Shown here: positions 19,957-60,903 of the stretch, in pieces
Numbering within the stretch: the stretch's first letter is position 1
How the letters are laid out: each line of letters opens with the position of its first letter
From: a virus
DNA: 64,000 bases
IMG/VR virus record: IMGVR_UViG_3300042291_000666
Location: 1-64,000 of that record
Reading direction: 5' to 3' (one strand)
The notes under the pieces: model-generated
What the model was told of the DNA's origin: nothing
Database searches by the model: none
The model's input: the letters and a program-made list of their open reading frames with translations, nothing else
Program-made: the position numbers and the translations under genes

Positions 19957-20538
19957 TTAATTTTTCAAAGATATAGAACTATTTTTAATTTTTTCACAAA
20001 ATAGTTCACTTTTTTTAAAGTAAAGAGTTTCTTTCTCTAAATCTGGAATACTGCAAACTTCAAAAACCTCTTCAATTTGTTTTAAAGGAACATCTAAGGC
20101 TTCCGCATAAAGTTTATGTGCTGAATTAGGTGACAAAAATAAACTGACATATTCTGAAATATTACCTTTATTACCAAAAAAATCTAAGATTATGATTTTT
20201 GTATCTAAACTAAATTTAGAATACTGCCCATCAATAAATCTTTTAAAATCTGATTTGTATTGGGTGAAATCAAAGATAAATAAGTGTCTATTTTCATCAA
20301 GTTGTACATATTCATAAAACAACGGGTGCTTTTTAAGATATGAATTGCAAAACAATTCAAACTTTTCTGATGTACCTACATTGTACTCACACAAAAACTT
20401 ATTTTCATCAGTAGTAATCAAGTGCTCCCAGCAGACATAAGTCTGCACGGGAACAAATGATAAACCAGATCTAAACCTTAATAAAGGATAAAGAAATACT
20501 TTACTTTTTTGAAAATATTCAGTGTATACACCCTTCAT
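19957..20538 (-). CDS. Hypothetical protein
   Basis: 193 residues, mixed alpha/beta, with FIFDFTQYKSDFKRFIDG in the middle and LSPNSAHKLYAEALDVPL near the end. No family recognised. Two nt from the PD-(D/E)XK nuclease gene upstream; part of the replication operon. Confidence 0.65.
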   Translation of the reverse strand: MKGVYTEYFQKSKVFLYPLLRFRSGLSFVPVQTYVCWEHLITTDENKFLCEYNVGTSEKFELFCNSYLKKHPLFYEYVQLDENRHLFIFDFTQYKSDFKRFIDGQYSKFSLDTKIIILDFFGNKGNISEYVSLFLSPNSAHKLYAEALDVPLKQIEEVFEVCSIPDLEKETLYFKKSELFCEKIKNSSISLKN

Positions 20539-22685: not shown

Positions 22686-23708
22686 TTATTTTGCATATTT
22701 TAAATATTCTGGTTTTACTTGTACTTTAAATACATACAAGTCTCTATTACTAATGTGAATTTCTTTTCTTACAGTTGGTTCTAAATATTTAAAACTAACT
22801 GAATCAAGCTTGCCTTCTTTTTCTAACCAAATAATCATATCATGCGCGCTTTTTCTAGAGAATTTATTGAAGTCAGATTGTTCTAACCAATACTGAACAT
22901 CTTTGTCTCTATTAAAATGATACATGTAACGTTCTGATTTCTGTGCAAACTCCCATAGTAAATGATAGTTTTGTAAGTAATCAATTGTAGGAATAACTTT
23001 TGCAGCTATAGCTCTATCTTCTTCATTATAAGATTGTAAATACTTTTGTATGTCTTCTAATAATGTTTCATCTAAAACTTGTTTATTAGCTGATTCATAA
23101 ATTACTGTATCTACATTAATTGTTCCTATTAAACCTGAATCAACTTTATGTGCAAGATTTATAGCCATACCTTGGATCATCCATTCATCATATAATGAAT
23201 CTCCTGTAATACAATTATAATATCTTACTTTGCTAGCTAAATTACCATCATAAATTACATCTCCTGCATAAGCATCTACAGCTAAAACTGAACCAGCTGT
23301 ACTTTCAAGTGTTTGATAATTCCATAACTTGGCCATTAATACAGTTGACTTAATATTTTCTCCACTTTCAAATCTTTCATAGATATCATCATGGGTAATA
23401 ATTAAATCAGCTAATTCATAGTCATTGGTTACAGATATACCATGTTCTTTTAGAGCAGATTTGATTCTATCTAATGAAACATTACATTTTGGCAATACAA
23501 ATGCTTTCTTTTTGGTTTTAAAAGTTGTACTATCTTCAGTACTATTTGTTAATATATCACGTATTTTTAAAAATGTTGTTTCATCTTGAGTGACTAATAC
23601 TTGTTCTATCACATTGGATGATAGCACCCCATAATAAGGGGCACTATCTAATCCAAAATGATTTAAAGCAGTAGTATCATATGATTGATAAACTGATTTA
23701 CTTGCCAT
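22686..23708 (-). CDS. AAA+/VWA module partner B (paralog of 21530-22684)
   Basis: 340 residues, start 1 nt after the AAA+ gene stop. LPKCNVSLDRIKSALKEHG then YELADLIITHDD looks like a BRCT-like strand-helix-strand unit; a helical region follows with CITGDSLYDEWMIQGMAINL. It has paralogy to the downstream gene. No catalytic motif is visible. A role as substrate adaptor or target of the AAA+ machine is inference from the operon. Confidence 0.75.
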   Translation of the reverse strand: MASKSVYQSYDTTALNHFGLDSAPYYGVLSSNVIEQVLVTQDETTFLKIRDILTNSTEDSTTFKTKKKAFVLPKCNVSLDRIKSALKEHGISVTNDYELADLIITHDDIYERFESGENIKSTVLMAKLWNYQTLESTAGSVLAVDAYAGDVIYDGNLASKVRYYNCITGDSLYDEWMIQGMAINLAHKVDSGLIGTINVDTVIYESANKQVLDETLLEDIQKYLQSYNEEDRAIAAKVIPTIDYLQNYHLLWEFAQKSERYMYHFNRDKDVQYWLEQSDFNKFSRKSAHDMIIWLEKEGKLDSVSFKYLEPTVRKEIHISNRDLYVFKVQVKPEYLKYAK

Positions 23709-23709
23709 T

Positions 23710-24981
23710 TTATTTCATTGTCATTTTGATGATATCTGGATTCATCATCATTTTGTTAAACTTCTGTTTGTTACCATTGAAGATTGTACGTACAATTAGA
23801 TACTTAAGATCATTAGTGAAATAGTCTTTAGTACAAAGAGAAATCAATCTGTCTGATACTTTTTGGTTTACAGTATTGTCTTTACTGTAAACAACTGAAT
23901 AGTTAGCCAACCTTGTTGCTAATGTAGCAGCAATGTCTGCGCGGTATGTATCATCTTTTCCAATACAACCTCTTAACTCACCAAGGATATATGATTCATT
24001 ATCATGAGTCAACAAATCTTTAGGTGTTACCAGTTTGTCCAGCTTATTGTTAATAAATGTAGTAAACATAGAAGCAAAAGCATCTCCAACAGAACCTTCA
24101 CCAATCATTTGAATTAATGATAAGTTTGATTCAAAGTTCTCAAAGCTAGATATAGCATTAAAGAATGTTGTAATAGATCTTGCATTTGTTTCTAGTGTAA
24201 CTAACTCTGGGTGTAACAACAAAAAGTTGATACATCTTGAGTCAATACCTGCTTCTTCTGCCCATTGTGCCCATACATTAACATCAAACTTAAGGTTTGC
24301 TGTAACGTATCTGGTTTTTTGTGCAGCATCCACTGAGTTTACCATATACTCACCATTGTCTGGGTTTGCTGTTAATATGATATGCCAATCTTTTGGTAAT
24401 ACCCAAGAGATATAAGTTTGTCTATCTATTAACTCCATAACTGCTTGAATAAATCTTGTGTCAGCTCTATTCCAGTCATCTAGTAATAAGATACCGCCAT
24501 CTTTTTTATCAGCAATCCACTCCGGTGGGCAATAAGACATCCTGTTCTTACCTGTCATTTTATATCCTGTTTTAAGATATTCTTGAACTGCAAGTTCATC
24601 AACCCATAAACCAACTTTTTTGGTTACTGCTGTTTGAATATTAGCAAGGTCTGATGACGCAGCTGATCTTTGTGCTGCGGTATAGGATAAATCATCTATT
24701 TTTGGTTCTGAAACTCTTGTTTCTTTATACATTTGAAATTGACGTACTGGGAATCCTACTAAGTCACCCAACTCTTCTATCTGTGCAAGGTTAACCTTAA
24801 CAAAGTTTAAGTTGTTTTCTTTAGCTAGCTCAACAATGGTAGATGTTTTACCAATTCCTGATTCTCCTAATACTTCTACTGATACAGATTGTTTACCTTG
24901 TGCTTGTAAAAATCTATTGTTTGTAATAATGTGATTTACAAACCCTTTTAATTCTGTTACATTTAAATTTACTTGTGCCAT
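23710..24981 (-). CDS. MoxR/CobS-like AAA+ ATPase
   Basis: 423 residues. Walker A GESGIGKTS at 39-47, Walker B ILLLDD at 164-169, sensor 1 in LTANP around 203-207 and a candidate arginine finger R224 (QKTRY). This is the MoxR branch, which includes CobS-like proteins found in several tailed phages. These ATPases usually pair with VWA-domain proteins, and the VWA partner is the gene directly upstream (12 nt). The biochemical role in phages is unsettled. Confidence 0.85.
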   Translation of the reverse strand: MAQVNLNVTELKGFVNHIITNNRFLQAQGKQSVSVEVLGESGIGKTSTIVELAKENNLNFVKVNLAQIEELGDLVGFPVRQFQMYKETRVSEPKIDDLSYTAAQRSAASSDLANIQTAVTKKVGLWVDELAVQEYLKTGYKMTGKNRMSYCPPEWIADKKDGGILLLDDWNRADTRFIQAVMELIDRQTYISWVLPKDWHIILTANPDNGEYMVNSVDAAQKTRYVTANLKFDVNVWAQWAEEAGIDSRCINFLLLHPELVTLETNARSITTFFNAISSFENFESNLSLIQMIGEGSVGDAFASMFTTFINNKLDKLVTPKDLLTHDNESYILGELRGCIGKDDTYRADIAATLATRLANYSVVYSKDNTVNQKVSDRLISLCTKDYFTNDLKYLIVRTIFNGNKQKFNKMMMNPDIIKMTMK

Positions 24982-37072: not shown

Positions 37073-37144
37073 GTTTTTGTTTTTAAAAGTGTCACATATG
37101 ATAGTTTATTGCATGAATTTTTAGTAAAGTTTCATGCACTTTTG

Positions 37145-37230
37145 TAGCCGGAGAGGGATTTGAACCCACACGGATATTGCTATCCAAAGGATTTTAAGTC
37201 CTTCATGTCTACCAGTTTCATCATCCGGCC
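37145..37230 (-). tRNA. tRNA-Leu (anticodon UAA)
   Basis: 86 nt cloverleaf on the minus strand. The acceptor stem GGCCGGA/TCCGGCT has one G-U pair. The D arm has AACTGGTAGA, the anticodon stem AAGGA/TCCTT holds loop CTTAAAA, a long variable arm GGATA/TATCC is as in type II tRNAs, and the T loop is TTCAAAT with one mismatch in the stem. CCA is not encoded. It reads UUA, a common codon in this genome. Confidence 0.93.
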
Positions 37231-37354
37231 AAGTTGGTGTGGATTTGCTGTTGGCACCACACCATTGCAAGTATTACCTTAGCTTGCGCCACCATTCATG
37301 AACTTCAGACATCCCAATGGTTGTTATTGTACTATCTGAGTCAAATAACAGCTG
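37231..37354 (-). other. Structured spacer between the two tRNAs
   Basis: 124 nt with no gene. It holds three stems in a row: GGTGTGG/CCACACC (37235-37264), GCAAG/CTTGC (about 37268-37290) and CCATT/AATGG (about 37296-37320). It does not fold as a normal tRNA because no T arm with TTCAAAT is present. Either a small RNA, a degenerate tRNA, or processing structure. Confidence 0.4.
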
Positions 37355-37428
37355 TGATTCAATCAGGATTTGAACCTGAAACCTACGTCTTAGAAGGGCG
37401 TTGCTCTATCCAGTTGAGCTATTGAACC
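37355..37428 (-). tRNA. tRNA-Arg (anticodon UCU)
   Basis: 74 nt on the minus strand. Acceptor GGTTCAA/TTGAATC with one G-U, D arm GCTC/GAGC, anticodon loop CTTCTAA, T arm TCAGG-TTCAAAT-CCTGA. The anticodon stem has a C-A mismatch at the fourth pair. CCA is not encoded. It reads AGA, the main arginine codon in these genes. Confidence 0.9.
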
Positions 37429-42149: not shown

Positions 42150-42401
42150 TTATTTTTTATTAAGGATTTGTTGATCTGAATCTTGATAAGGGTCTGGTAA
42201 ATATAACTTGTCTTGATACCATATACAAAAAGGTTTTCCTAATGTATCAGTAACAACTCTGCAAGTATCTATTCTTACGATGTGATTGTATTCAGGTTGA
42301 CTGACTACAGTTCTGTGATATTGTCCTTTGACCATATCTACAATGATATAGACAAAGAACAATACTACAGCTATTCCGGCTAAGTTAATCCTCATATTCA
42401 T
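42150..42401 (-). CDS. Single-pass membrane protein
   Basis: 83 residues with one N-terminal transmembrane segment (about 6-24) and a soluble part containing two Cys (DTCRVVTDT, FCIWYQDKLY). Overlaps the next membrane gene by 17 nt. Not recognised. Confidence 0.6.
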   Translation of the reverse strand: MNMRINLAGIAVVLFFVYIIVDMVKGQYHRTVVSQPEYNHIVRIDTCRVVTDTLGKPFCIWYQDKLYLPDPYQDSDQQILNKK

Positions 42402-42597
42402 ATTTTTCAGCTAGATCACAACCTACTATAGCAGCAGGTATCCATCCAAAGATCAACATAAACATAAGTGTACCACCATTGGTAGCACAAGTTTTGAAAT
42501 CTGTTACACTAGATAACAGGTAAGCAATTGAGGCTATTAAAAGCCATGTGATTAGGAATGTTGCAATAACTGCAAGCATAATTTTTGTTGTTTTCAT
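42385..42597 (-). CDS. Two-helix membrane protein
   Basis: 70 residues with segments at about 5-28 and 40-60 and a charged C-terminus. Overlaps the preceding and following small genes of the envelope cluster. Not recognised. Confidence 0.6.
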   Translation of the reverse strand: MKTTKIMLAVIATFLITWLLIASIAYLLSSVTDFKTCATNGGTLMFMLIFGWIPAAIVGCDLAEKYEYED

Positions 42598-44058: not shown

Positions 44059-44220
44059 AACTAATTTAATTAATTGTTTTATTGCAATAGTGCAACAATT
44101 AGCTGGGGAGCAGAGAGAGGCTGCGCGGAGCGCAGCAGCAGGAGAGCAGAAAGGTATGCGTAATGGCTGTTGGGCAGAAAGATTAATAACAGTAAGAAAG
44201 TATGCGTTGTGGCTCTTAAG
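44059..44220 (-). promoter_or_regulatory. GC-rich leader of paralog A
   Basis: It contains a 22-nt block (44092-44113, core AATTAGCTGGGGA) that recurs with 20 of 22 matches upstream of paralog B. A perfect 7-bp hairpin GCTGCGC/GCGCAGC lies at 44120-44136. Two copies of an 18-nt repeat (44151-44168 and 44197-44214, 15 of 18 identical, core GTATGCGT) follow. Base composition is far above the genome average. Probably promoter, operator or structured 5' leader. Confidence 0.55.
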
Positions 44221-44281
44221 TAAAAAAAGGGTCAATAGTAACCCTTTAAAAGAAGAGGAGTGCTTTTACACACTCCTCTGT
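44221..44281 (-). terminator. Double terminator of paralog B
   Basis: Two consecutive hairpins on the minus strand: AGAGGAGTG/CACTCCTCT (9 bp, 44254-44279) followed by TCTTTT, then AAGGGT/ACCCTT (44227-44246) followed by seven T residues. They begin 10 nt after the stop. Confidence 0.85.
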
Positions 44282-44288
44282 TCTGATG

Positions 44289-44618
44289 TTACACAGCCTC
44301 AATCCACATTAGTGTTGTTAGCTCACCAGTTTGAATATCAACCACAGGGTTGCTACTCATTTGGAATCCTGGCATTTCATCTCCAGCATTTAGTTTCTTT
44401 TGCAAAGCTGCAATTGTTGGGTGATTAGCCTTCATCACCTGATTGGTTTCAGGGTCAATAAGACTTAGCACTCCAAATACTACACTACCTTGTGTACGTG
44501 TTCCCACGTTCAGTCCTGCAAGTGTAGTTTGCTTGCTTGTGATTGGTTTGTCTGTAGCAATGATAGTTGCTGTTCCAGTAGACTCATTTACTCTTAATTT
44601 TCTGAAGAAAACACTCAT
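44289..44618 (-). CDS. 109-residue paralogous protein B
   Basis: Gap-free paralog of 43729-44058 (84 of 109 identical). FFRKLRVNESTGTATI, GLNVGTRTQGSVVFGVLSL and KANHPTIAALQKKLNAG are shared. Sequence is hydrophilic, beta-rich at the N-terminus and helical in the middle, with no signal peptide. Not recognised. First gene of the leftward block, next to the divergent promoter region, with a private double terminator, so probably abundant and early. Tandem duplication is recent enough to leave the leader block recognisable. Confidence 0.8.
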   Translation of the reverse strand: MSVFFRKLRVNESTGTATIIATDKPITSKQTTLAGLNVGTRTQGSVVFGVLSLIDPETNQVMKANHPTIAALQKKLNAGDEMPGFQMSSNPVVDIQTGELTTLMWIEAV

Positions 44619-45984: not shown

Positions 45985-46220
45985 TGGCACTAGCAAAATC
46001 ACAAGAGTCTTTAAAGAAATGGACCAAAGAGAAATGGAAGACCTCAGACGGAAAACCGTCTAAAGGTAAGAAAAGGTATTTGCCCTCTGCAGCATGGGAT
46101 GCTTTAAGTCCTTCTGAGAAAGCAGCTACTAATAAAGCTAAAGCTGAAGGCAATGCCAAAGGAAAGCAATTTGTTAAACAACCTAAATCCGTAGCTAAGA
46201 AAGCTGCAAAATATAGATAA
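45984..46220 (+). CDS. DUF5872-like small basic protein
   Basis: 78 residues. SQESLKKWTKEKWKTSDGKP, RYLPSAAWDALSPSEKAAT and GKQFVKQPKSVAKK match DUF5872. The three genes 45521-46220 overlap by one base each and probably act together. Function unknown; basic proteins in the virion block. Confidence 0.75.
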   Translation: MALAKSQESLKKWTKEKWKTSDGKPSKGKKRYLPSAAWDALSPSEKAATNKAKAEGNAKGKQFVKQPKSVAKKAAKYR

Positions 46221-46891: not shown

Positions 46892-47200
46892 ATGGCAAAT
46901 GCAAAAACCAACAATCCTTTAGATGAAAAGGAACCAATCCTTACTAAAGAAGAATTGAATGCACGTAGAGAAGAAATCAGTGCATTCTACAAAGACAATA
47001 TTCCACATTTAGAAGTACAAGCAGAGTATGAGATGCTTTTGGCTACTATTGAGAAATCAAGAGCTGAAAGATTGCAGGCTCAAATGTATATGGCACAAGC
47101 CTATGCTTCTCAAAAAGAAGGTGGACAAGTACCTGTTGATTCAGAAGAAGCAAAAGCTTTTAAAGAAGCAATGGAAAATGCTGCATCTCAAATTGACTAA
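46892..47200 (+). CDS. Coiled-coil hypothetical protein
   Basis: 102 residues, mostly helical (LTKEELNARREEISAFYKDN, AEYEMLLATIEKSRAERLQA). Acidic. Not recognised; it precedes the endolysin gene by 3 nt and shares its promoter. May be a small structural or regulatory protein. Confidence 0.65.
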   Translation: MANAKTNNPLDEKEPILTKEELNARREEISAFYKDNIPHLEVQAEYEMLLATIEKSRAERLQAQMYMAQAYASQKEGGQVPVDSEEAKAFKEAMENAASQID

Positions 47201-47203
47201 ACA

Positions 47204-48127
47204 ATGAAGATGCTAAAAAGGGGGGATTCTGGACCAGATGTCCAGACCCTCCAATCCAAACTCTTATTAAAGCAGGATGCACAGTTTGGACCCGCAACAG
47301 AAAAAGCTGTAATCAGATTCCAACTATCTAATAATCTGCCAGTTACAGGAATAGTAGACTCAGATATGTGGACATTGTTATTTAACAAAGTACCTACATT
47401 ACAAGAAGCTATTGATGAAGACTCGGATGTATCTCAACAGTTATTTAAAACTAATTTTGATCAGACAATTCATAAGTATTATTTATCTCCAAAAGAATAT
47501 ATCAAAGGACCAATTAAAAATGAATATATATTCTTACATCACACTGCAGGAAATAACAATCCTTTTGCTTGTGTTGATATGTGGAATAAAGATGACAGAG
47601 GAGCCATTGGAACTGAATTTGTTTTAGGTGGTAAAAACTGCCACAATGGAGATGCTAAATATGATGGTAGAATGGTTCAAGCTTTTCCAACAGGAAATCA
47701 AGGTTGGCATTTAGGTTTAACTAAATCAGGTTGGATGAATAGACACTCTGTAGGTTTAGAAATCTGCTGTATGGGTCAACTTACTAAAGATTATAAAACC
47801 TATGTAGGAACCAAGGCTCATCCAGATGAAGTAACAACTTTAAAGGAAGTATTCAGAGGATTTTTAAATTGGCATTCTTATTCAGAGAAGCAAATTAAAG
47901 AAACTGAAAAGTGGATTAAGTATGTTGCTGAAAGAGACAGTATTGATGTAAGATTAGGATTGAAACAATTAATACAAAAGTACGGTGCAACTAAAGCATT
48001 TGAATATAATGAAGATGCAGCTACTGGAAAAATTAAAGGATTACTAACCCATACCAATGTAAGAAAGGATAAGTTTGATTGTTATCCACATCCTGACTTA
48101 GTTGATATGATAATGAGTTTAAAATAA
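47204..48127 (+). CDS. Endolysin: N-acetylmuramoyl-L-alanine amidase
   Basis: 307 residues. N-terminal peptidoglycan-binding domain (about 4-60: RGDSGPDVQTLQSKL ... FGPATEKAVIRFQ) and a C-terminal Amidase_2/PGRP domain with L-H-H113-T-A-G, W-H-L-G, and H283-T-N-V-R-K followed by C293, the zinc ligands and catalytic lysine area as in T7 lysozyme. It cuts the amide between muramic acid and L-Ala. A Met at residue 3 is an alternative start. No signal peptide, so release needs the holin. Confidence 0.9.
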   Translation: MKMLKRGDSGPDVQTLQSKLLLKQDAQFGPATEKAVIRFQLSNNLPVTGIVDSDMWTLLFNKVPTLQEAIDEDSDVSQQLFKTNFDQTIHKYYLSPKEYIKGPIKNEYIFLHHTAGNNNPFACVDMWNKDDRGAIGTEFVLGGKNCHNGDAKYDGRMVQAFPTGNQGWHLGLTKSGWMNRHSVGLEICCMGQLTKDYKTYVGTKAHPDEVTTLKEVFRGFLNWHSYSEKQIKETEKWIKYVAERDSIDVRLGLKQLIQKYGATKAFEYNEDAATGKIKGLLTHTNVRKDKFDCYPHPDLVDMIMSLK

Positions 48128-53535: not shown

Positions 53536-56283
53536 ATGAAAGTACTTAATGCAATGCAGTTGAAGGCCGGTGCAAAAAAAACAGAAGGGCCTACCTTTTC
53601 TAGTCTAACGCAACCTATTCAGTTTTTACCTTATTCTGAAAAAACAGATGATTGGGCAGCTTGGAATTTAGATTGGTTAGAACTCCAAGGTATTCAATTT
53701 TTAAAACTTAATGCCAGAAGACTTTTAAAAAATTATAAATTAGCTAAAGGAATCATAGATAAAACAGACTATATAGTTGAACCTGATAATGACTATAAAG
53801 ATTTAATGGATGTTTTAACTAAAGAAAATGATTCAGCTTTAGAACTTAAATTTTATCCTATCATTCCAAATGTAATTAATGTATTGAGTGGAGAGTTTTC
53901 CAAAAGATACAATAAAGTACAGTTCAGAGCAGTTGATGATAGATCTTACAATGAAATGCTTGAGCAAAAGAGAATGCAAGTTGAAGAAGCTTTACTTGCA
54001 GATGCTGAAAGAAAGTTAGTAGAAAAGATGATTCAAATGGGAATGGACCCAGCATCTGATGAAGCTAAACAACAACTTGCTCCAGAAAATATTAAGACAT
54101 TACCTGAAATTGAAGACTATTTCAGTAAATCATATAGAAGTTCTGTTGAAGAGTGGGCAACTCATCAATTAAATGTTGATGAAGAAAGATTCAAAATGCA
54201 AGAACTTGAAGAAAGAGGTTTTAGAGATATGCTTATTGCTGATAGAGAGTTCTGGCATTTCCGTATGTTAGAAGATGATTATGACATTGAATTATGGAAT
54301 CCTGTTTTAACATTCTACCAGAAGTCTCCAGATCAAAGATATATTTCTGATTCAGCATATGTTGGTAAAGTAGATTTGATGACAGTATCTGATGTTGTAG
54401 ATAAATACGGATATTTGATGAGCCAAGAACAATTGGAATCATTACAAAGAATTTATCCGGCAAGATCTGCTCAATATCAAGTTAATGGATATCAAAATGA
54501 TGGTTCTTATTATGATGCAACAAGATCACACGCTTGGAATACTAATGCCCCAGGTTTAGCATATAGACAATATACAAGTAACTACATGGCAGATCCTGCT
54601 AGAGGTGGTGATATATTAAATCAAATTTTAGGAGAGAGTGAAGACTTAGCTTACTTTGGTGATGGTAATTTAATGAGAGTATCTACAATTTATTGGAAGA
54701 CTCAAAGAAAAATTGGACATCTTACTAAAATAGAATTTGATGGTGAAGTAACTCAAGAAATAGTTGATGAAACATTTAAAGTAACAGAAAAACCTGTTTA
54801 TGATACATCAATCTTTAAAAATAAAACAAAAGATACTCTACTACAAGGAGAACATCTTGATTGGATTTGGATTAATGAGATTTGGGGTGGTGTAAAAGTT
54901 GGACCAAATGTACCTGCTATGTGGAAGAGTTCTACAAGTAGTGAAATAAATCCAATATACTTGGGTATTAATAGAACTAAACCAGGTAGATTACCATTCC
55001 AATTTAAAGGAAACAATTCTTTATATGGTTGTAAGTTACCTGTAGAAGGTAGAGTGTTCTCTGATAGAAATACAAGATCTACTTCTTTAGTAGATTTAAT
55101 GAAAGCATATCAGGTTGGATATAACATGGTTAATAACCAGATTGCTGATATCTTAATTGATGAATTAGGTACAGTAATTATGTTTGACCAGAATGCATTA
55201 CCACGTCACTCTATGGGAGAAGATTGGGGTAAAAACAATTATGCTAAAGCATACGTAGCAATGAAGGATTTCCAAATGCTTCCTCTTGATACTTCAATTA
55301 CTAATACAGAAAATGCTGTAAACTTCCAACACTACCAGACTCTAAACATGGAGCAAACTAGCAGGTTAATGAGTAGAATACAATTAGCAAATTACTTTAA
55401 ACAACAATGTTTTGATGCAATTGGAATTAATCCTCAGAGATTAGGTGGTCCGGTAGCAGCAGAAACAGCTACAGGAGTAATGAACGCAATGCAACAATCA
55501 TATGCTCAAACAGAAATTTATTTTGTACAGCACTCTGATCAGTTAATGCCAAGAGTACACCAAATGAGAACAGACTTAGCTCAGTTCTATTATAGTACTA
55601 ATCCAAGTGTAAGATTGAGTTATATATCTACTGAAGCAGAAAAGGTAAACTTTACAATCAATGGTACAGATCTTTTACTAAGAGACTTCAACGTATTTGC
55701 TACAACTAAGACAAATCATAGAGCTATTCTTGAACAGTTAAAGCAAATGGCATTAACTAATAATACAACAGGTGCTAGTATATATGAACTTGGAAACATT
55801 GTTAAAGCAGATTCTATTGGTGAAGTAACAGATATCTTAAAAGATTCTGAAGCAAGAGTAAATGCTCAAAGACAAGAGGAAATGCAACAACAACGTCAAA
55901 TGCAAGAACAACAGTTACAAGCACAGGCGCAAGAGGCTCAAATGAAAGTTCAGATGGAGCAAGAAGAAGCAGAGAAAAACAGACAGAAAGATATTACAGT
56001 GGCTGAAATTAGAGCTGCTGGATATGGAGCTGGTGTAGATGTAAATGAAAATAAAATAAATGATTACCAGGATGCACTAAAAGATATTCAACAAACAACT
56101 CAATATAGAGAGCAAATGAATATGAAACGTGAAGAGATGGTAAGTAAGTCATCTACAGAATCTCAGAAACTTCAAGTTGAAAGAGAAAGAATTGCAGCAC
56201 AAACACAGATAGCAAAGACGCAGTTAGATATAGCAATACAGAATAAAAACAAGTATGATAGCAAAAAACCAAAAGATAAATAA
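53536..56283 (+). CDS. Portal protein
   Basis: 915 residues, long for a portal but usual in crAss-like and related phages. N-terminal wing FLKLNARRLLKNYKLAKGII, a region YPIIPNVINVLSGEFSKRYN, and a central TYWK/DWIWINEIWGGVKVGP segment. A C-terminal Gln/Glu-rich coiled coil covers about 775-835 (EEMQQQRQMQEQQLQAQAQE). The dodecameric portal forms the DNA entry vertex and docks the terminase. Position between terminase and capsid genes supports this. Confidence 0.85.
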   Translation: MKVLNAMQLKAGAKKTEGPTFSSLTQPIQFLPYSEKTDDWAAWNLDWLELQGIQFLKLNARRLLKNYKLAKGIIDKTDYIVEPDNDYKDLMDVLTKENDSALELKFYPIIPNVINVLSGEFSKRYNKVQFRAVDDRSYNEMLEQKRMQVEEALLADAERKLVEKMIQMGMDPASDEAKQQLAPENIKTLPEIEDYFSKSYRSSVEEWATHQLNVDEERFKMQELEERGFRDMLIADREFWHFRMLEDDYDIELWNPVLTFYQKSPDQRYISDSAYVGKVDLMTVSDVVDKYGYLMSQEQLESLQRIYPARSAQYQVNGYQNDGSYYDATRSHAWNTNAPGLAYRQYTSNYMADPARGGDILNQILGESEDLAYFGDGNLMRVSTIYWKTQRKIGHLTKIEFDGEVTQEIVDETFKVTEKPVYDTSIFKNKTKDTLLQGEHLDWIWINEIWGGVKVGPNVPAMWKSSTSSEINPIYLGINRTKPGRLPFQFKGNNSLYGCKLPVEGRVFSDRNTRSTSLVDLMKAYQVGYNMVNNQIADILIDELGTVIMFDQNALPRHSMGEDWGKNNYAKAYVAMKDFQMLPLDTSITNTENAVNFQHYQTLNMEQTSRLMSRIQLANYFKQQCFDAIGINPQRLGGPVAAETATGVMNAMQQSYAQTEIYFVQHSDQLMPRVHQMRTDLAQFYYSTNPSVRLSYISTEAEKVNFTINGTDLLLRDFNVFATTKTNHRAILEQLKQMALTNNTTGASIYELGNIVKADSIGEVTDILKDSEARVNAQRQEEMQQQRQMQEQQLQAQAQEAQMKVQMEQEEAEKNRQKDITVAEIRAAGYGAGVDVNENKINDYQDALKDIQQTTQYREQMNMKREEMVSKSSTESQKLQVERERIAAQTQIAKTQLDIAIQNKNKYDSKKPKDK

Positions 56284-56285
56284 TT

Positions 56286-56304
56286 AGCGTTAGCTATATA
56301 CTGC
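56286..56304 (+). repeat. Copy of the GTTAGCTATATA motif
   Basis: AGCGTTAGCTATATACTGC directly behind the portal stop, plus orientation; compare 40274-40290 and 43565-43586. A small hairpin TGCAAA/TTTGCA follows (about 56302-56317). Confidence 0.5.
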
Positions 56305-56362
56305 AAAAAACTTTGCAATATTATCAAATATAATAAGTTTAGGATAGTGTAAACTAAATAAA

Positions 56363-56387
56363 GAATTGTTATATTATATATATAAAG
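56363..56387 (+). promoter_or_regulatory. Putative late-type promoter
   Basis: GAATTGTTATATTATATATA, 26 nt before the start at 56413. Would give a capsid-cluster transcript independent of the terminase-portal unit. Confidence 0.45.
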
Positions 56388-56412
56388 TATTAATTATTAA
56401 ACCAACAATAAG

Positions 56413-57714
56413 ATGAGTACCAAAAACAACACAATGAGTAGTAACGTAGAGACTTTAGATATTGACTTAGATACAATATTCAATGCAGCACCAAGCGGTG
56501 ATGACATGACTTTGCCATCTGGAAAGGATACTAAATCTACAAACAACATTTTTTCAGGAATAAATAAGAAAGCAGATTTTTCATTTGCTGATCCAGATGC
56601 AGATGATGCAGATGATTTAACTGATAAAGGTAAAACTCCAACATCAAGTGCAGATCTTCTTGCAGATGATGATAATGAGATTACACCTAAAGCAACTAAA
56701 GAAGATGGTAAAAGCATCCTTGATAGTTTAGGTGATGATGAAGATGAAGAAGAAAGAAAAGAAACTAGAGGTAGAAAACCTATTTCTGGAATTTCTGATG
56801 TCTTCTCTAAAATGATTAAAGAAGATAAATTAGTACCTTTTGATGATGAAAAGTCTTTTGATGAATATACAGCAAAAGATTGGGAAGAATTAATTGAAGC
56901 TAATTTGGAAGAAAAAGCTAATCAAGTAAGACGTGAAACACCTAAACAGTTTTTTGCTAGCTTACCTGAAGAGTTACAAATTGCAGCAAGATATGTGGCA
57001 GATGGTGGTACTGACTTAAAAGGTTTGTTTTCCACTTTAGGTCAAGTAGAAGAAACTAAGGATTTAGATATTAAATCTGAAAGAGATCAGGAGATTATTA
57101 TTAAAGAATATTTAAATGCTACTGGTTACGGTACTTCTGATGAGATTGCTGAGGAAATTGAAATTTGGAAAGATTTAGGAAAGCTTGAACAACAAGCTGC
57201 TAAGTTCAAACCAAAGTTGGATAAGATGGCAGAACAAATTGTTATCAAAAAAGTGCAAGAGCAACAACTAAAACAAAAACAACAAGAGCAAGCTTCTAAA
57301 GCTTATATGCAAAATGTATATGATACTTTAAAAGATGGTAACTTGGGAGATATTAAAGTTGATAGAAAAACTCAAGCAATGTTGTATAATGGTTTAGTTC
57401 AACCTAGTTATCCTTCAGTAAGTGGAAGAAATACTAATTTATTAGGACACCTATTAGAAAAGTATCAGTTTGTAGAACCAAATTATAAATTAATATCAGA
57501 AGCATTATGGTTATTGCAAGATCCGGAAGGATATAAAGCAAAGATCATGGATAAGGGAGCTCAACAAAGTATTGAGCAAACAGTAAGAAAACTAAAAACA
57601 GAACAGGGTAACCATAGTTCAAGTTCTCTTGGGATTCAAGATAAAGATGAAGAAACAAGAAGACAACCAACTAAAAAATTACCTAGAACCAACAACATTT
57701 TCAAACGGATTTAA
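56413..57714 (+). CDS. Scaffold-like acidic protein
   Basis: 433 residues. N-terminal 130 residues are strongly acidic and low-complexity (FADPDADDADDLTDKG, DDEDEEERKE). A central GRKPISGISDVFSKMI and a helical part follow, with a Gln/Lys coil (about 276-298), and the C-terminus is basic. It lies between portal and capsid genes, the usual place of a scaffold or core protein, and is highly charged as such proteins are. Assignment is from composition and position. Confidence 0.65.
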   Translation: MSTKNNTMSSNVETLDIDLDTIFNAAPSGDDMTLPSGKDTKSTNNIFSGINKKADFSFADPDADDADDLTDKGKTPTSSADLLADDDNEITPKATKEDGKSILDSLGDDEDEEERKETRGRKPISGISDVFSKMIKEDKLVPFDDEKSFDEYTAKDWEELIEANLEEKANQVRRETPKQFFASLPEELQIAARYVADGGTDLKGLFSTLGQVEETKDLDIKSERDQEIIIKEYLNATGYGTSDEIAEEIEIWKDLGKLEQQAAKFKPKLDKMAEQIVIKKVQEQQLKQKQQEQASKAYMQNVYDTLKDGNLGDIKVDRKTQAMLYNGLVQPSYPSVSGRNTNLLGHLLEKYQFVEPNYKLISEALWLLQDPEGYKAKIMDKGAQQSIEQTVRKLKTEQGNHSSSSLGIQDKDEETRRQPTKKLPRTNNIFKRI

Positions 57715-57759: not shown

Positions 57760-59376
57760 ATGGCAACTCCAGTATTAAATAATGGGATTTTCCTAAGAGA
57801 CACTAGCTACAAAGCAAGTTCTCATGTTGATTCTTATCACTTGACTCAGATGCTAGGTTCAGCAGAACCTATGGATATGGGACCAATTGATTTATGGGCA
57901 ATGACTCAAAAAGTTGAAATGCCTCTTTATCAAATGGCATCATTTGGTGGAAAGAATACTATCATGGTAGACAATGCTCGTGGTGAGTACAAATGGCAAA
58001 CTCCTATTGCACAAGATCTTCCATACATTGTGGCAGACATTGAACCAGCTAATGCCGCTAAAGGTGTAGATGGAACAACATTCAAAATTAAAATTTCTAA
58101 AAGAACATTTGGACATGGTGATATCATCACTTATGACAAATACAATGGATTAGAACTTTACATCACAGCTGATGATATCATCCCTGCTGGTGACGGTTTT
58201 ATCTATACTGTTCAATTAGTAAACAACAACAACGTAGCTAGCTTAGACAATAAGTATTTAGCTAAAGGTACTAAGTTCTTCAGAAAAGGTTCTGCAAGAG
58301 GTGAGTACGGAGAAAGATTCTCTGACATTGAAACAGGTTCTGGTTTCCGTGAGTTCTACAACTTTGTAGGAGGAGCTGAAGCACACGTACACTATTCTAT
58401 TTCTAGCCGTGCTGATCTTATGATTAAAGGTGGTTTGAATGCAGATGGTACTGTACCTGTAACTGAAATCTGGAGAAACTTTGGTGCAAACAATGATCCT
58501 GCTGTACCTAGTATTGAAGGATTAATTGCTAACATGGGTAAAGCTGGTGCAAGAGAAGCATTTGAAAATGGTTCATTGACTAGAACATTTATCACTAACA
58601 TGGAAGCTGCGCATTTATCAAAAATTGCTTCTGACATTGAAACTTACTTAATGTGGGGTAAAGGTGGTAGAATCAAACAAGATGGTCCAGATGATATTAG
58701 ATTATCTGTGGGATTATGGGCACAGTTGGATAACTCATTCAAAAGAGTTTACAACAAGTCTTCTTTCACACTTGATATGTTTAAATCTGAATTGTATAAC
58801 TTCTACCAAGGTAAAGTTGAGTTCAAAGGTCCAGATCCACAAAGATCACTTGTTGTTCAAACAGGTATTGGTGGTATGCAATTGATCAACAAAGCTATTG
58901 CTGATGAAGTATATGGTTCTGGTTTAGTACAAAATGCTAGTGATATTGGAGCTGTTAAAGGTTCTGGAATGGATCTAGATTATGGATTTGCTTACACTTC
59001 ATTTACTATTCCTTTCTTAGCTAACGTTAAGTTTGTATTGAACCCTGCGTTTGATAACTTGAATACTAATGATATTGAGAATCCATTAATTGATGGCCGT
59101 CCATTAAGTTCTTATAGCTTCATTATCTTTGACGTAACAGATGAAGGAAATGATAACATCCATTTATTGAAATTATCTTGGGATAATCAATTGAAATGGT
59201 TCTACCAAAATGGAACTATGGATTATATGGGAAGAACTCAAGGTTTTGCATCTACTGGTAACTTCAACGGATACCGTGTAATGATGTCACAAACTATGCC
59301 TGCTATTTGGGTTAAGGATCCAACTAAAGTTTTAAAAATTGTTATGAGAAACCCTATTACTGGTGGTTCATTCTAA
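57760..59376 (+). CDS. Major capsid protein
   Basis: 538 residues. Long, well-balanced sequence with codon use favouring preferred codons, and no signal or coil. The segment PFLANVKFVLNPAFDNL and other parts look like HK97-fold capsid proteins of crAss-like phages. Position after portal and scaffold-like genes and isolation in its own unit fit the most abundant virion protein. A structured RNA element starts directly after its stop. Confidence 0.85.
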   Translation: MATPVLNNGIFLRDTSYKASSHVDSYHLTQMLGSAEPMDMGPIDLWAMTQKVEMPLYQMASFGGKNTIMVDNARGEYKWQTPIAQDLPYIVADIEPANAAKGVDGTTFKIKISKRTFGHGDIITYDKYNGLELYITADDIIPAGDGFIYTVQLVNNNNVASLDNKYLAKGTKFFRKGSARGEYGERFSDIETGSGFREFYNFVGGAEAHVHYSISSRADLMIKGGLNADGTVPVTEIWRNFGANNDPAVPSIEGLIANMGKAGAREAFENGSLTRTFITNMEAAHLSKIASDIETYLMWGKGGRIKQDGPDDIRLSVGLWAQLDNSFKRVYNKSSFTLDMFKSELYNFYQGKVEFKGPDPQRSLVVQTGIGGMQLINKAIADEVYGSGLVQNASDIGAVKGSGMDLDYGFAYTSFTIPFLANVKFVLNPAFDNLNTNDIENPLIDGRPLSSYSFIIFDVTDEGNDNIHLLKLSWDNQLKWFYQNGTMDYMGRTQGFASTGNFNGYRVMMSQTMPAIWVKDPTKVLKIVMRNPITGGSF

Positions 59377-59380
59377 CAAA

Positions 59381-59538
59381 AGAAATTGTTAAGCTCCGCA
59401 CCTCAGCTCTGGCCCTTCGGGGTCATCTGGGGGGCGTCTTAGCAATACTGTGATAGGTTGGCCCATATCTCTATTCTGTGTGCATTGACAAGGGATGTCT
59501 AGCATGCTGGGGCCAGCTGATTCACTTTATTTTTTTTA
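59381..59538 (+). ncRNA. GC-rich structured RNA element behind the capsid gene
   Basis: A gap of 184 nt with no gene. A long hairpin (59386-59445) has three stacked helices: TTGTTAAG/CTTAGCAA, CGCACCTCAG/CTGGGGGGCG (9 of 10 pairs) and TGGCCC/GGGTCA closed by a TTCG tetraloop. A second domain is closed by GTTGGCCC/GGGCCAGC (59457-59464 with 59510-59517) with inner pairs GCAT/ATGC and GACA/TGTC. A run of T residues (59531-59537) follows. Contrast with the AT-rich surroundings is strong. Could be an abundant small RNA, a terminator-stabiliser of capsid mRNA, or a packaging-related RNA. Confidence 0.65.
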
Positions 59539-59560
59539 ACAAACTTAATTATAAAATATT

Positions 59561-59761
59561 ATGGCACTAGATATAAAAAAAGCAAACAAAACATATGAGT
59601 TTTCAAACTCAAATGTTTCTCAAATTATTGCTTCAAAAGCTGTAGGTAAAGATATATTAGATAGAAATTATGCTGATAATGTTGCAGCAAAAGCAGCAGG
59701 ATTAGGTAATGGAGATTTATATCATACGGCAGGAGTATTAAAAATTGTTTACGCGGCTTAA
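59561..59761 (+). CDS. Small capsid-associated protein
   Basis: 66 residues. ALDIKKANKTYEFSNSNVSQ and AAGLGNGDLYHTAGVLKIVY; the G-D-L-Y-x-T-x-x-x-L-K-[IV]-V end is frequent in small phage proteins next to capsid genes. Possibly a decoration or cementing protein. A weak terminator follows. Confidence 0.65.
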   Translation: MALDIKKANKTYEFSNSNVSQIIASKAVGKDILDRNYADNVAAKAAGLGNGDLYHTAGVLKIVYAA

Positions 59762-59775
59762 GTCAAATAAACTGG

Positions 59776-59799
59776 AGTAAGAATAAAAACCTTACTTTA
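59776..59799 (+). terminator. Weak terminator
   Basis: AGTAAG, 9-nt loop, CTTACT followed by TTAG, 15 nt after the stop of the small capsid-associated gene. The short U-run makes it weak. Confidence 0.4.
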
Positions 59800-59821
59800 G
59801 AAATATTAATAATAATAAATT

Positions 59822-59842
59822 GTACATAATTATGTACTTTTG
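59822..59842 (+). promoter_or_regulatory. Palindrome overlapping a -7 element
   Basis: Perfect 16-bp palindrome GTACATAATTATGTAC (59822-59837) overlapping TACTTTTG (59835-59842), a match to the TANNTTTG consensus, 45 nt before the start at 59887. Candidate operator-promoter. Confidence 0.45.
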
Positions 59843-59886
59843 ACAATGAGAAAACAATTATTAAATTTTAACACAAAAACCAAATT

Positions 59887-60903
59887 ATGAATGATTACAC
59901 AATTGTAGAAAAGTATCAGCAAACAAAGAATCAAACTATTGCTATACGCCCTTATTTTAACTCTTCAAAAGAGAACATGGGTTTAGAGCATTACGGATTA
60001 GCTTTGCATGATGGAGTATTTCATGAAGAAACATTAGCTTGTTTAGAAATGAATGGGGTTAAACGTTATGTTACAGGATTAAATGAATTTGCTCCTGATG
60101 TAAAAATGTTAGCTCCAAAAGAAAAAGAAGCAAAGATCAAAGAAATTAGAAAAGTTGTTTCTCAATTAGAAGCTGAATTAGCTGCTAATGTTGTTGCTGT
60201 TGATGATAAAGATTTTTGGAACAAGCTTACAGTAATGAAGCCTGATAATTCAAAATTTTGGGATAAGATTAGTTTAAGATGTGGTAATGATCCTGTGTTT
60301 TTAGATCCAGATAAAGATCCTTATGACTTAATTAAATTACATGCTATTCATGCAGGAGGTTTTTCTATTGTAGCAAAATCATTAAGAGAAGCAAGAGAAT
60401 CAGGTAATCCACCTAAATTCTATCTTGATACAATGGAAGAAACATTAAGTACTAGAACAGAACTTAGTAAATTAAAAAATAAAGCATTGGTTGAACTACA
60501 AAAAATGTATGATTCAAATGCTTCAAAATTAATGTATGTTGCTAAAATCTGTGATGCTGATAGTGTACAGTATGTTAAAAATACACCTAATGATATTCTT
60601 TATGAAAACATGGATGAATATATTCATGGTAATGGTGCTGAGTCTTCTAAGAAAAGAGCAGCTTCACAATTTATAGAAGTGTCAGGGTTATCAATGGAAG
60701 AATTAAAAATTAGAGCTTTAATTAAAGACTCTTTATATTATAGATTTATTACTACTAAAGCTGGAGGTTGGATTGAACCAATTGACAGTGGAATTAGATT
60801 GGGTAAGTCACCATCTGAATGTCTGGAATTTTTAAAGAATCCAGAGAATGAAGAAACATTGATGTCATTACTTAATAAAGTAGAGCCATACTGGAACTCC
60901 TAA
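59887..60903 (+). CDS. Virion-cluster hypothetical protein
   Basis: 338 residues, mostly helical, with KEAKIKEIRKVVSQLEAELA, DVKMLAPKEKE and KFYLDTMEETLSTRTELSKL. Located between capsid and connector genes, the region of head completion and connector proteins. Not recognised. Codon use like its neighbours. Confidence 0.65.
   Translation: MNDYTIVEKYQQTKNQTIAIRPYFNSSKENMGLEHYGLALHDGVFHEETLACLEMNGVKRYVTGLNEFAPDVKMLAPKEKEAKIKEIRKVVSQLEAELAANVVAVDDKDFWNKLTVMKPDNSKFWDKISLRCGNDPVFLDPDKDPYDLIKLHAIHAGGFSIVAKSLREARESGNPPKFYLDTMEETLSTRTELSKLKNKALVELQKMYDSNASKLMYVAKICDADSVQYVKNTPNDILYENMDEYIHGNGAESSKKRAASQFIEVSGLSMEELKIRALIKDSLYYRFITTKAGGWIEPIDSGIRLGKSPSECLEFLKNPENEETLMSLLNKVEPYWNS

Follow-up and report, generated by a model that had tools for sequence, protein, structure and literature searches.

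In the crAss-like phage DNA analyzed here, the short terminator hairpin that follows the major capsid gene in near relatives has been replaced by a larger RNA element that folds on the + strand, with the T-run kept in place. The window, which comprises positions 1 to 64,000 of the 118,325-base IMG/VR virus record IMGVR_UViG_3300042291_000666, carries this two-domain element at 59385–59525, its first base 8 nt past the capsid stop. We give an even chance to the interpretation that the element is a lineage-specific composite terminator and 3'-UTR structure of the capsid transcript, which would protect the mRNA and set the level of read-through. Judged from sequence comparison, the same junction in wider relatives holds two unrelated pseudoknot families, A and B, which are supported by covariation and absent from Rfam 15 as tested.

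A folded element behind the capsid gene

The earlier note on this DNA had described a GC-rich, structured, gene-free RNA behind a capsid gene, and its coordinates and letters for 59381–59538 agree with ours. The features of the junction are as follows.

57760–59376, + strand: major capsid protein gene, 538 aa, crAss-like (Pfam PF23898, PHROG 11589)
59385–59446, + strand: hairpin 1, stacked helices with a UUCG loop (MFE structure; shuffles)
59450–59525, + strand: domain 2, with outer stem GUGA/UCAC, stem GGUUGGCCC/GGGGCCAGC-U side and inner hairpin (MFE structure; shuffles of 59447–59530)
59526–59537, + strand: T-run after the domain 2 outer stem (sequence; at the place of the T-run of relatives)
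59561–59761, + strand: 66-aa ORF, no family match, present in near relatives
59835–59842, + strand: TAnnTTTG motif before the 338-aa gene (Bacteroidota -7 consensus in the available text of PMC7366714)
59887–60903, + strand: 338-aa gene that follows the junction in relatives, no family match, homologue in 195 junctions

The upstream gene is a capsid gene, as had been claimed: it scores 104.5 bits against Pfam PF23898 (Crass_capsid; cut-off 27), matches PHROG 11589 (major head protein) and is preceded in the window by terminase and portal genes. The GC content of 120-nt windows reaches its maximum, 0.55, at 59401, compared to a window mean of 0.315, and the two lowest MFE values of the window are found on the + strand at starts 59401 and 59361 (120-nt windows, step 40, both strands). 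Folding gave an MFE of -61.6 kcal/mol for the 158 nt of 59381–59538 (z -4.12), matched by none of 200 shuffles. Hairpin 1 alone (59385–59446) has a z of -4.71 (0/200 shuffles as good) and domain 2 (59447–59530) a z of -2.45 (2/200). The reverse strand of 59381–59538 is unremarkable (z -0.6, 49/200 shuffles as good), and the structuring of the element is confined to the + strand. The UUCG-capped hairpin, the second stem-loop domain and the T-run that had been recognized by eye are all present, with hairpin 1 built of stacked helices in the MFE structure and the T-run directly 3' of the domain 2 outer stem. The claim that the element contains no gene also holds, as the ORF list of the window has no ORF of at least 60 aa over it.

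Two further observations concern the window more broadly. A 7-nt direct repeat, TAACAAA, flanks the element at 59374–59380 and 59537–59543 and may be due to chance in AT-rich DNA. The sliding scan also identified low-folding-energy stretches at 44201–44520, 46041–46160, 47161–47280, 20361–20520 and 23561–23720, mostly best on the minus strand.

A plain terminator at the same position in near relatives

A capsid protein search of IMG/VR gave 598 loci, of which the best 80 were taken. Among the matches listed, the capsid proteins of L001–L006 are 98–100% identical to that of the window, and all seven near relatives (L001–L006 and L153) have one 22–25-nt hairpin and a T-run in the gap. The window and L001 are 95.3% identical in the upstream piece and 93.1% in the downstream piece, and the alignment breaks over the hairpin. 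Across L001–L006, the pieces adjoining the gap are 91.5–95.3% identical to the window and those further down 79–84%. Because the near relatives have the plain hairpin between aligned flanks, this comparison of sequences indicates that the element is not conserved and that the terminator was replaced in the lineage of the window. A scan for standard terminators found the L001 hairpin (one found, serving as the positive control) and none in window 59300–59900, because its loop ahead of the T-run far exceeds 8 nt.

This replacement bears directly on the suggestion that the element could be a packaging-related RNA broadly comparable to phi29 pRNA. The element does lie among head and packaging genes. 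However, an RNA of that kind would be kept together with the packaging machinery, and this one is missing from seven of seven near relatives (among the matches listed), including L001–L006, in which the DNA adjoining the gap is about 91.5–95.3% identical, and has no match in Rfam. With a terminator having been replaced in a single lineage, we consider a packaging function like that of phi29 pRNA very unlikely, and that part of the earlier proposal is contradicted.

Among the roles that had been offered, that of a 3' stabilizer or terminator of the capsid mRNA fits best, as the element occupies the place of a terminator and ends in a T-run. The composite terminator is favored because hairpin and T-run are found there in all seven near relatives (among the matches listed). 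The polymerase would stop, in part, at the T-run behind domain 2, and hairpin 1 and domain 2, given their stability, could shield the capsid mRNA from 3'-to-5' decay. The 66-aa gene, whose gap lacks a promoter motif, would be expressed from read-through transcripts, and the 338-aa gene would be started anew from its own promoter. Two findings count against this explanation, namely that no standard terminator was scored and that the element is present in one record only.

The arrangement of motifs around the element is compatible with such a division. TAnnTTTG, described as the Bacteroidota -7 promoter consensus in the available text of PMC7366714, does not occur in the window gap between the capsid stop and the 66-aa ORF, which starts 23 nt past the T-run. 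In gaps shorter than 100 nt from all clades (n=115), a run of at least 5 T is present in 87 and TAnnTTTG in 6, and the distance from the end of the T-run to the next ATG has a median of 21 nt (11–43). The position of the T-run 11–43 nt before the next ATG and the scarcity of TAnnTTTG in short gaps suggest that the next ORF probably depends on read-through. At window 59762–59846 and in near relatives, a common hairpin with variable stem letters (CAAG/CTTG, CCGG/CCGG, CCAGG/CCTGG) stands before the 338-aa gene and is followed by TTAGAAATATTAATAATAA and then by a TGTACATAATTATGTAC-like palindrome running into TACTTTTG. By its sequence, this stretch resembles a late promoter with an operator.

Alternatively, the element could be a small RNA that is processed from the capsid mRNA's 3' end and acts on phage or host mRNAs. 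The stable + strand fold ending in a T-run would suit such an RNA, and 3'-UTR and intra-operonic small RNAs are reported to occur in Bacteroides in the available text of PMC7366714. We nevertheless regard this possibility as rather unlikely, given that the gap has no promoter motif and that the element is not conserved in near relatives.

Searches for kin of the element

Neither Rfam nor the phage, plasmid and E. coli collections gave a credible match to the element, which, as far as sequence searches tell, has no known homologue. In the Rfam 15 search that had been proposed, nothing reached the gathering score at the element, in agreement with the earlier statement that no known RNA family matches. 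With the threshold raised to E 10, the only match at the element was a 14-nt piece of PhotoRC-I (10.7 bits versus 45 needed). Neither ARAGORN nor Rfam identified a tRNA or tmRNA at the element; the matches within the window are confined to 37144–37428, where two tRNA genes, Leu(taa) and Arg(tct), lie on the minus strand. An integron attC site was considered and rejected by eye, as the core order is reversed.

Exact 17–24-base pieces of the element had no matches in IMG/VR viral contigs, and one exact 22-base piece had none in GTDB contigs. Comparison by blastn with plasmids and E. coli gave no match. The phage matches were limited to 28 AT-rich nt shared with Twort records, outside the stems (E 0.05), and 27 nt shared with Dulem virus 39 (E 6). 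An IMG/VR pattern search for a 130–190-nt gap between a window-like capsid end and a gene start resembling the one of the 66-aa ORF gave no further case; the pattern recovers the window itself, and its short-gap form recovers 26 of 84 loci.

R1, a model built from the element as a single sequence, found the element itself as the sole match in its own record and in 84 sources. It had no match in 34 whole records of relatives, in 7 loci, 99 further loci and 5 genomes, or, with stricter filters, in 395 genomes from the phylum of a Chitinophagaceae metagenome-assembled genome (MAG). A one-sequence model may miss distant kin, and these results may leave room for them. The models of the two families described below also gave no match to the element: R2 (family B) had none in the window or in L082–L084 at E 1 and none in G000 at 0.1, and R3 (family A) had none in the window at E 1 and none in G000 at 0.1.

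Because the element is known from one record only, an assembly error is possible, and the element might be a chimera or a recently acquired foreign stretch without a role in the phage. Its restriction to a single record, its GC content (0.55 in the best 120 nt versus 0.315) and the flanking TAACAAA repeat are in line with this reading, which we consider less probable still than a small RNA. The flanks continue at 93–95% identity to L001 with the T-run in place, high GC is common among the gaps of clades A and B, and no donor was found in IMG/VR, GTDB, phage, plasmid or E. coli searches.

Two pseudoknot families at the capsid junction of wider relatives

Capsid searches (including the best 80 of 598), a genome search and three public phages provided 223 starting loci, of which 3 were cut off at the capsid end; removal of duplicates left 165 distinct gaps. 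The 338-aa gene has a homologue in 195 downstream stretches, giving 143 distinct intervals. Many junctions contain 140–290 nt of GC-rich structured DNA. Every interval of at most 300 nt in family A (22/22, median z -4.12) and family B (15/15, median z -4.58) had a z below -2 (60 shuffles each). The same was true of 71 of 81 plain gaps, for which the first 70 nt were compared with 30 shuffles; the z of the window gap is -3.71. In named phages, the next gene lies 17–83 nt behind the capsid gene in 8 of 9 stubs and outside the stub in the ninth. The ORF right behind the capsid gene is very variable, from about 47 to more than 370 aa among the matches listed, which suggests that this spot also exchanges genes often.

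Twenty loci with A, B or other junction RNAs had nothing at the Rfam gathering score, and for L120 and L192 the sole match up to E 1 was to a microRNA model, located outside the gap and scoring well under the threshold. A different junction element at L099 3118–3260 has a T-arm-like GGGTTCGAATCC; ARAGORN called no tRNA there. The earlier note had proposed covariation in the gaps behind capsid genes of related phages as a check. This check succeeded for families A and B, which are different RNAs; the element itself had no homologue to compare.

The core of family A is an H-type pseudoknot. Across 18 distinct sequences, pairing in the pseudoknot stem is kept through changes among G-C, A-U and C-G. 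In a tidier alignment of 15 sequences, from which L174, L175, L210 and identical sequences were left out, 94.2% of 225 cells are paired, covariation is 0.265 compared to 0.128 in shuffles (0/500 as high), and 7 of 15 pairs, including all five of the pseudoknot, change on both sides. The number of further pair types, 9, was reached by 489 of 500 shuffles, a result against the base-pair pattern. L179, L184 and L215 have a longer downstream loop and are out of register at the pseudoknot, which lowers its count. At 0.1, R3 has matches in 28 of 38 records, including 26 at 1.1e-4 or below with one strong copy each; the record of the window is not matched. In locus L192 (3212–3219) and most other A loci, a conserved CCACCTCC that contains CACCTCC stands ahead of the A core and may be structural only. 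CACCTCC is as at the 3' end of 16S rRNA.

Family A is not restricted to the junction. When 13 named phage records were searched whole, a strong A match was found only in the gut crAssphage ctcc615 (MH552500, Wotdevirus murinus; E 3.9e-9 and 2.8e-9), with one more record at E 0.098; family B had none at 0.1. The ctcc615 copy is on the minus strand at 42354–42408, away from the capsid gene (55071–56546). A noncoding stretch of 461 nt (L260 2600–3060, MH552500.1, minus strand), with a z of -6.1 and no credible Rfam match, has this copy at its 3' end, and an unannotated small ORF follows the copy after 36 nt.

Family B has three helices, and its linker pairs with the third hairpin's loop to form a pseudoknot of 3 bp. 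Its alignment, A3, has 24 distinct cores in 63 columns; left out were L108 (core identical to L116), the deviant L198, L143, L207, L221 and L224, and cores missed by the motif, for example L138. In this alignment 93.8% of 449 cells are paired, covariation is 0.436 compared to 0.207 in shuffles (0/500 as high), and both partners change in 12 of 19 pairs. Pairing in the pseudoknot is intact in all 24 cores, two of its pairs being invariant and the third A-U, G-C or C-G. Of 46 whole records, 31 have an R2 match at E 0.1; 28 of these are at 4e-6 or below with one copy each, and the remaining three are weak. In 34 further records and genomes there are 5 matches at 0.1, the record of the window not among them, and in 296 genomes from the phylum of the Chitinophagaceae MAG there are none at 1e-4. 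A tRNA-like reading of family B was rejected, as ARAGORN found no gene in 31 loci.

Distribution and placement of the junction RNAs

In a midpoint-rooted FastTree tree of 142 capsid proteins plus that of the window, family A is a single clade of 27 members (support 0.71), and the 33 members of family B fall inside one clade of 35 leaves (support 0.99). The other two leaves of the B clade, L155 and L207, have B-like cores by eye, that of L207 scoring only 16.4 bits (E 0.48). The window is placed among leaves without A or B, beside L001 and L003. Runs of at least 5 T in the first 100 nt of the gap occur in 74 of 81 loci without A or B, compared to 7 of 27 with A and 6 of 35 in the B clade. Within 170 nt before the 338-aa gene, TAnnTTTG occurs in 48 of 83 loci without A or B, a class that here includes L155 and L207, versus 7.2 expected from base-composition shuffles; the counts are 2 of 27 for A (0.9 expected) and 4 of 33 for B (1.4 expected). 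This distribution suggests two arrangements: a terminator together with a new promoter in one set of phages, and a pseudoknot RNA, mostly without either of these, in the others.

Distances from the cores to the next ATG, based on mechanically found ORFs of 50 aa, suggest how families A and B are used. For the 27 A cores the median from core end to ATG is 41 nt and the range 23–64 nt, leaving out two edge ATGs (-8 and -7; in these two cases the 338-aa gene starts at 43 and 53 nt). For the 24 of 26 B cores with a next ORF, which is often other than the 338-aa gene, the median is 35.5 nt and the range 14–58 nt, except for L122 (4 nt; the 338-aa start is 52 nt away) and L219 (119 nt). Distances to the capsid stop are 74 to 517 nt for A and 66–428 nt for B. 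The cores thus keep a short distance to the next start codon and not to the capsid gene, which points to 5' leaders, and families A and B look like 5' leaders from this spacing.

The element could by analogy be a 5' leader module of the 66-aa gene that controls its translation or makes a protected 5' end. It shares the junction with A and B, is likewise GC-rich and multi-domain, and its last stem base (59525) is 35 nt before the ATG at 59561, within the range of the A and B cores. This distance does not discriminate, however, because the plain hairpin is similarly spaced in near relatives, and a T-run separates the element from the ATG. In addition, neither R2 nor R3 matches the element, and a linker-loop pseudoknot in domain 2 does not exceed chance expectation (157 of 2000 shuffles as good) and hence is not claimed. 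We therefore consider a leader unlikely and retain the composite terminator as the preferred explanation.

Implications and comparison with known systems

We speculate that unrelated structured RNAs arose or were swapped at the capsid junction on three or more occasions (giving A, B and the window type) to serve one task, namely the uncoupling of very high capsid output from the following genes. This tentative model would have pseudoknot RNAs perform the task in clades A and B, and a terminator plus new promoter in the clade of the window, where the structure is enlarged in this record. The element illustrates that a junction RNA can change while the adjoining DNA stays about 91.5–95% identical. 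Families A and B, each found in one clade and mostly 14–64 nt before a start codon, could provide a handle on the tuning of capsid and late-gene dosage. Among the papers listed in literature searches, none dealt with structured RNAs of crAss-like phages, including A and B, and the available text of PMC7886860 has no occurrence of terminator, noncoding, non-coding, intergenic or RNA structure.

Among known systems, phi29 pRNA is a structured phage RNA near packaging genes, and the element resembles it in this respect, but differs in having no Rfam match and in being missing from near relatives. The element shares with families A and B the place and a rough layout only. Family A (A4, A5, R3) also has several GC-rich hairpins at the junction, but is an H-type pseudoknot with CCUUGACGUGG in most members. 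Family B (A3, R2) has an outer stem, a linker and a hairpin near the 3' strand of the outer stem, as does the element, but the pseudoknot of family B (GCN/NGC) covaries, and in the first 100 nt a T-run is missing from 29 of the 35 B-clade gaps, whereas the element has one. The Rho-independent terminator of near relatives agrees with the element in position, place of the T-run and neighboring genes. It is one 22–25-nt hairpin, whereas the element consists of two domains that together span ~140 nt, and its loop is too long for the standard definition of a GC-rich, short-looped stem with a T-run directly behind it. While the element itself is without a known homologue, structured leaders and terminators are of a known kind.
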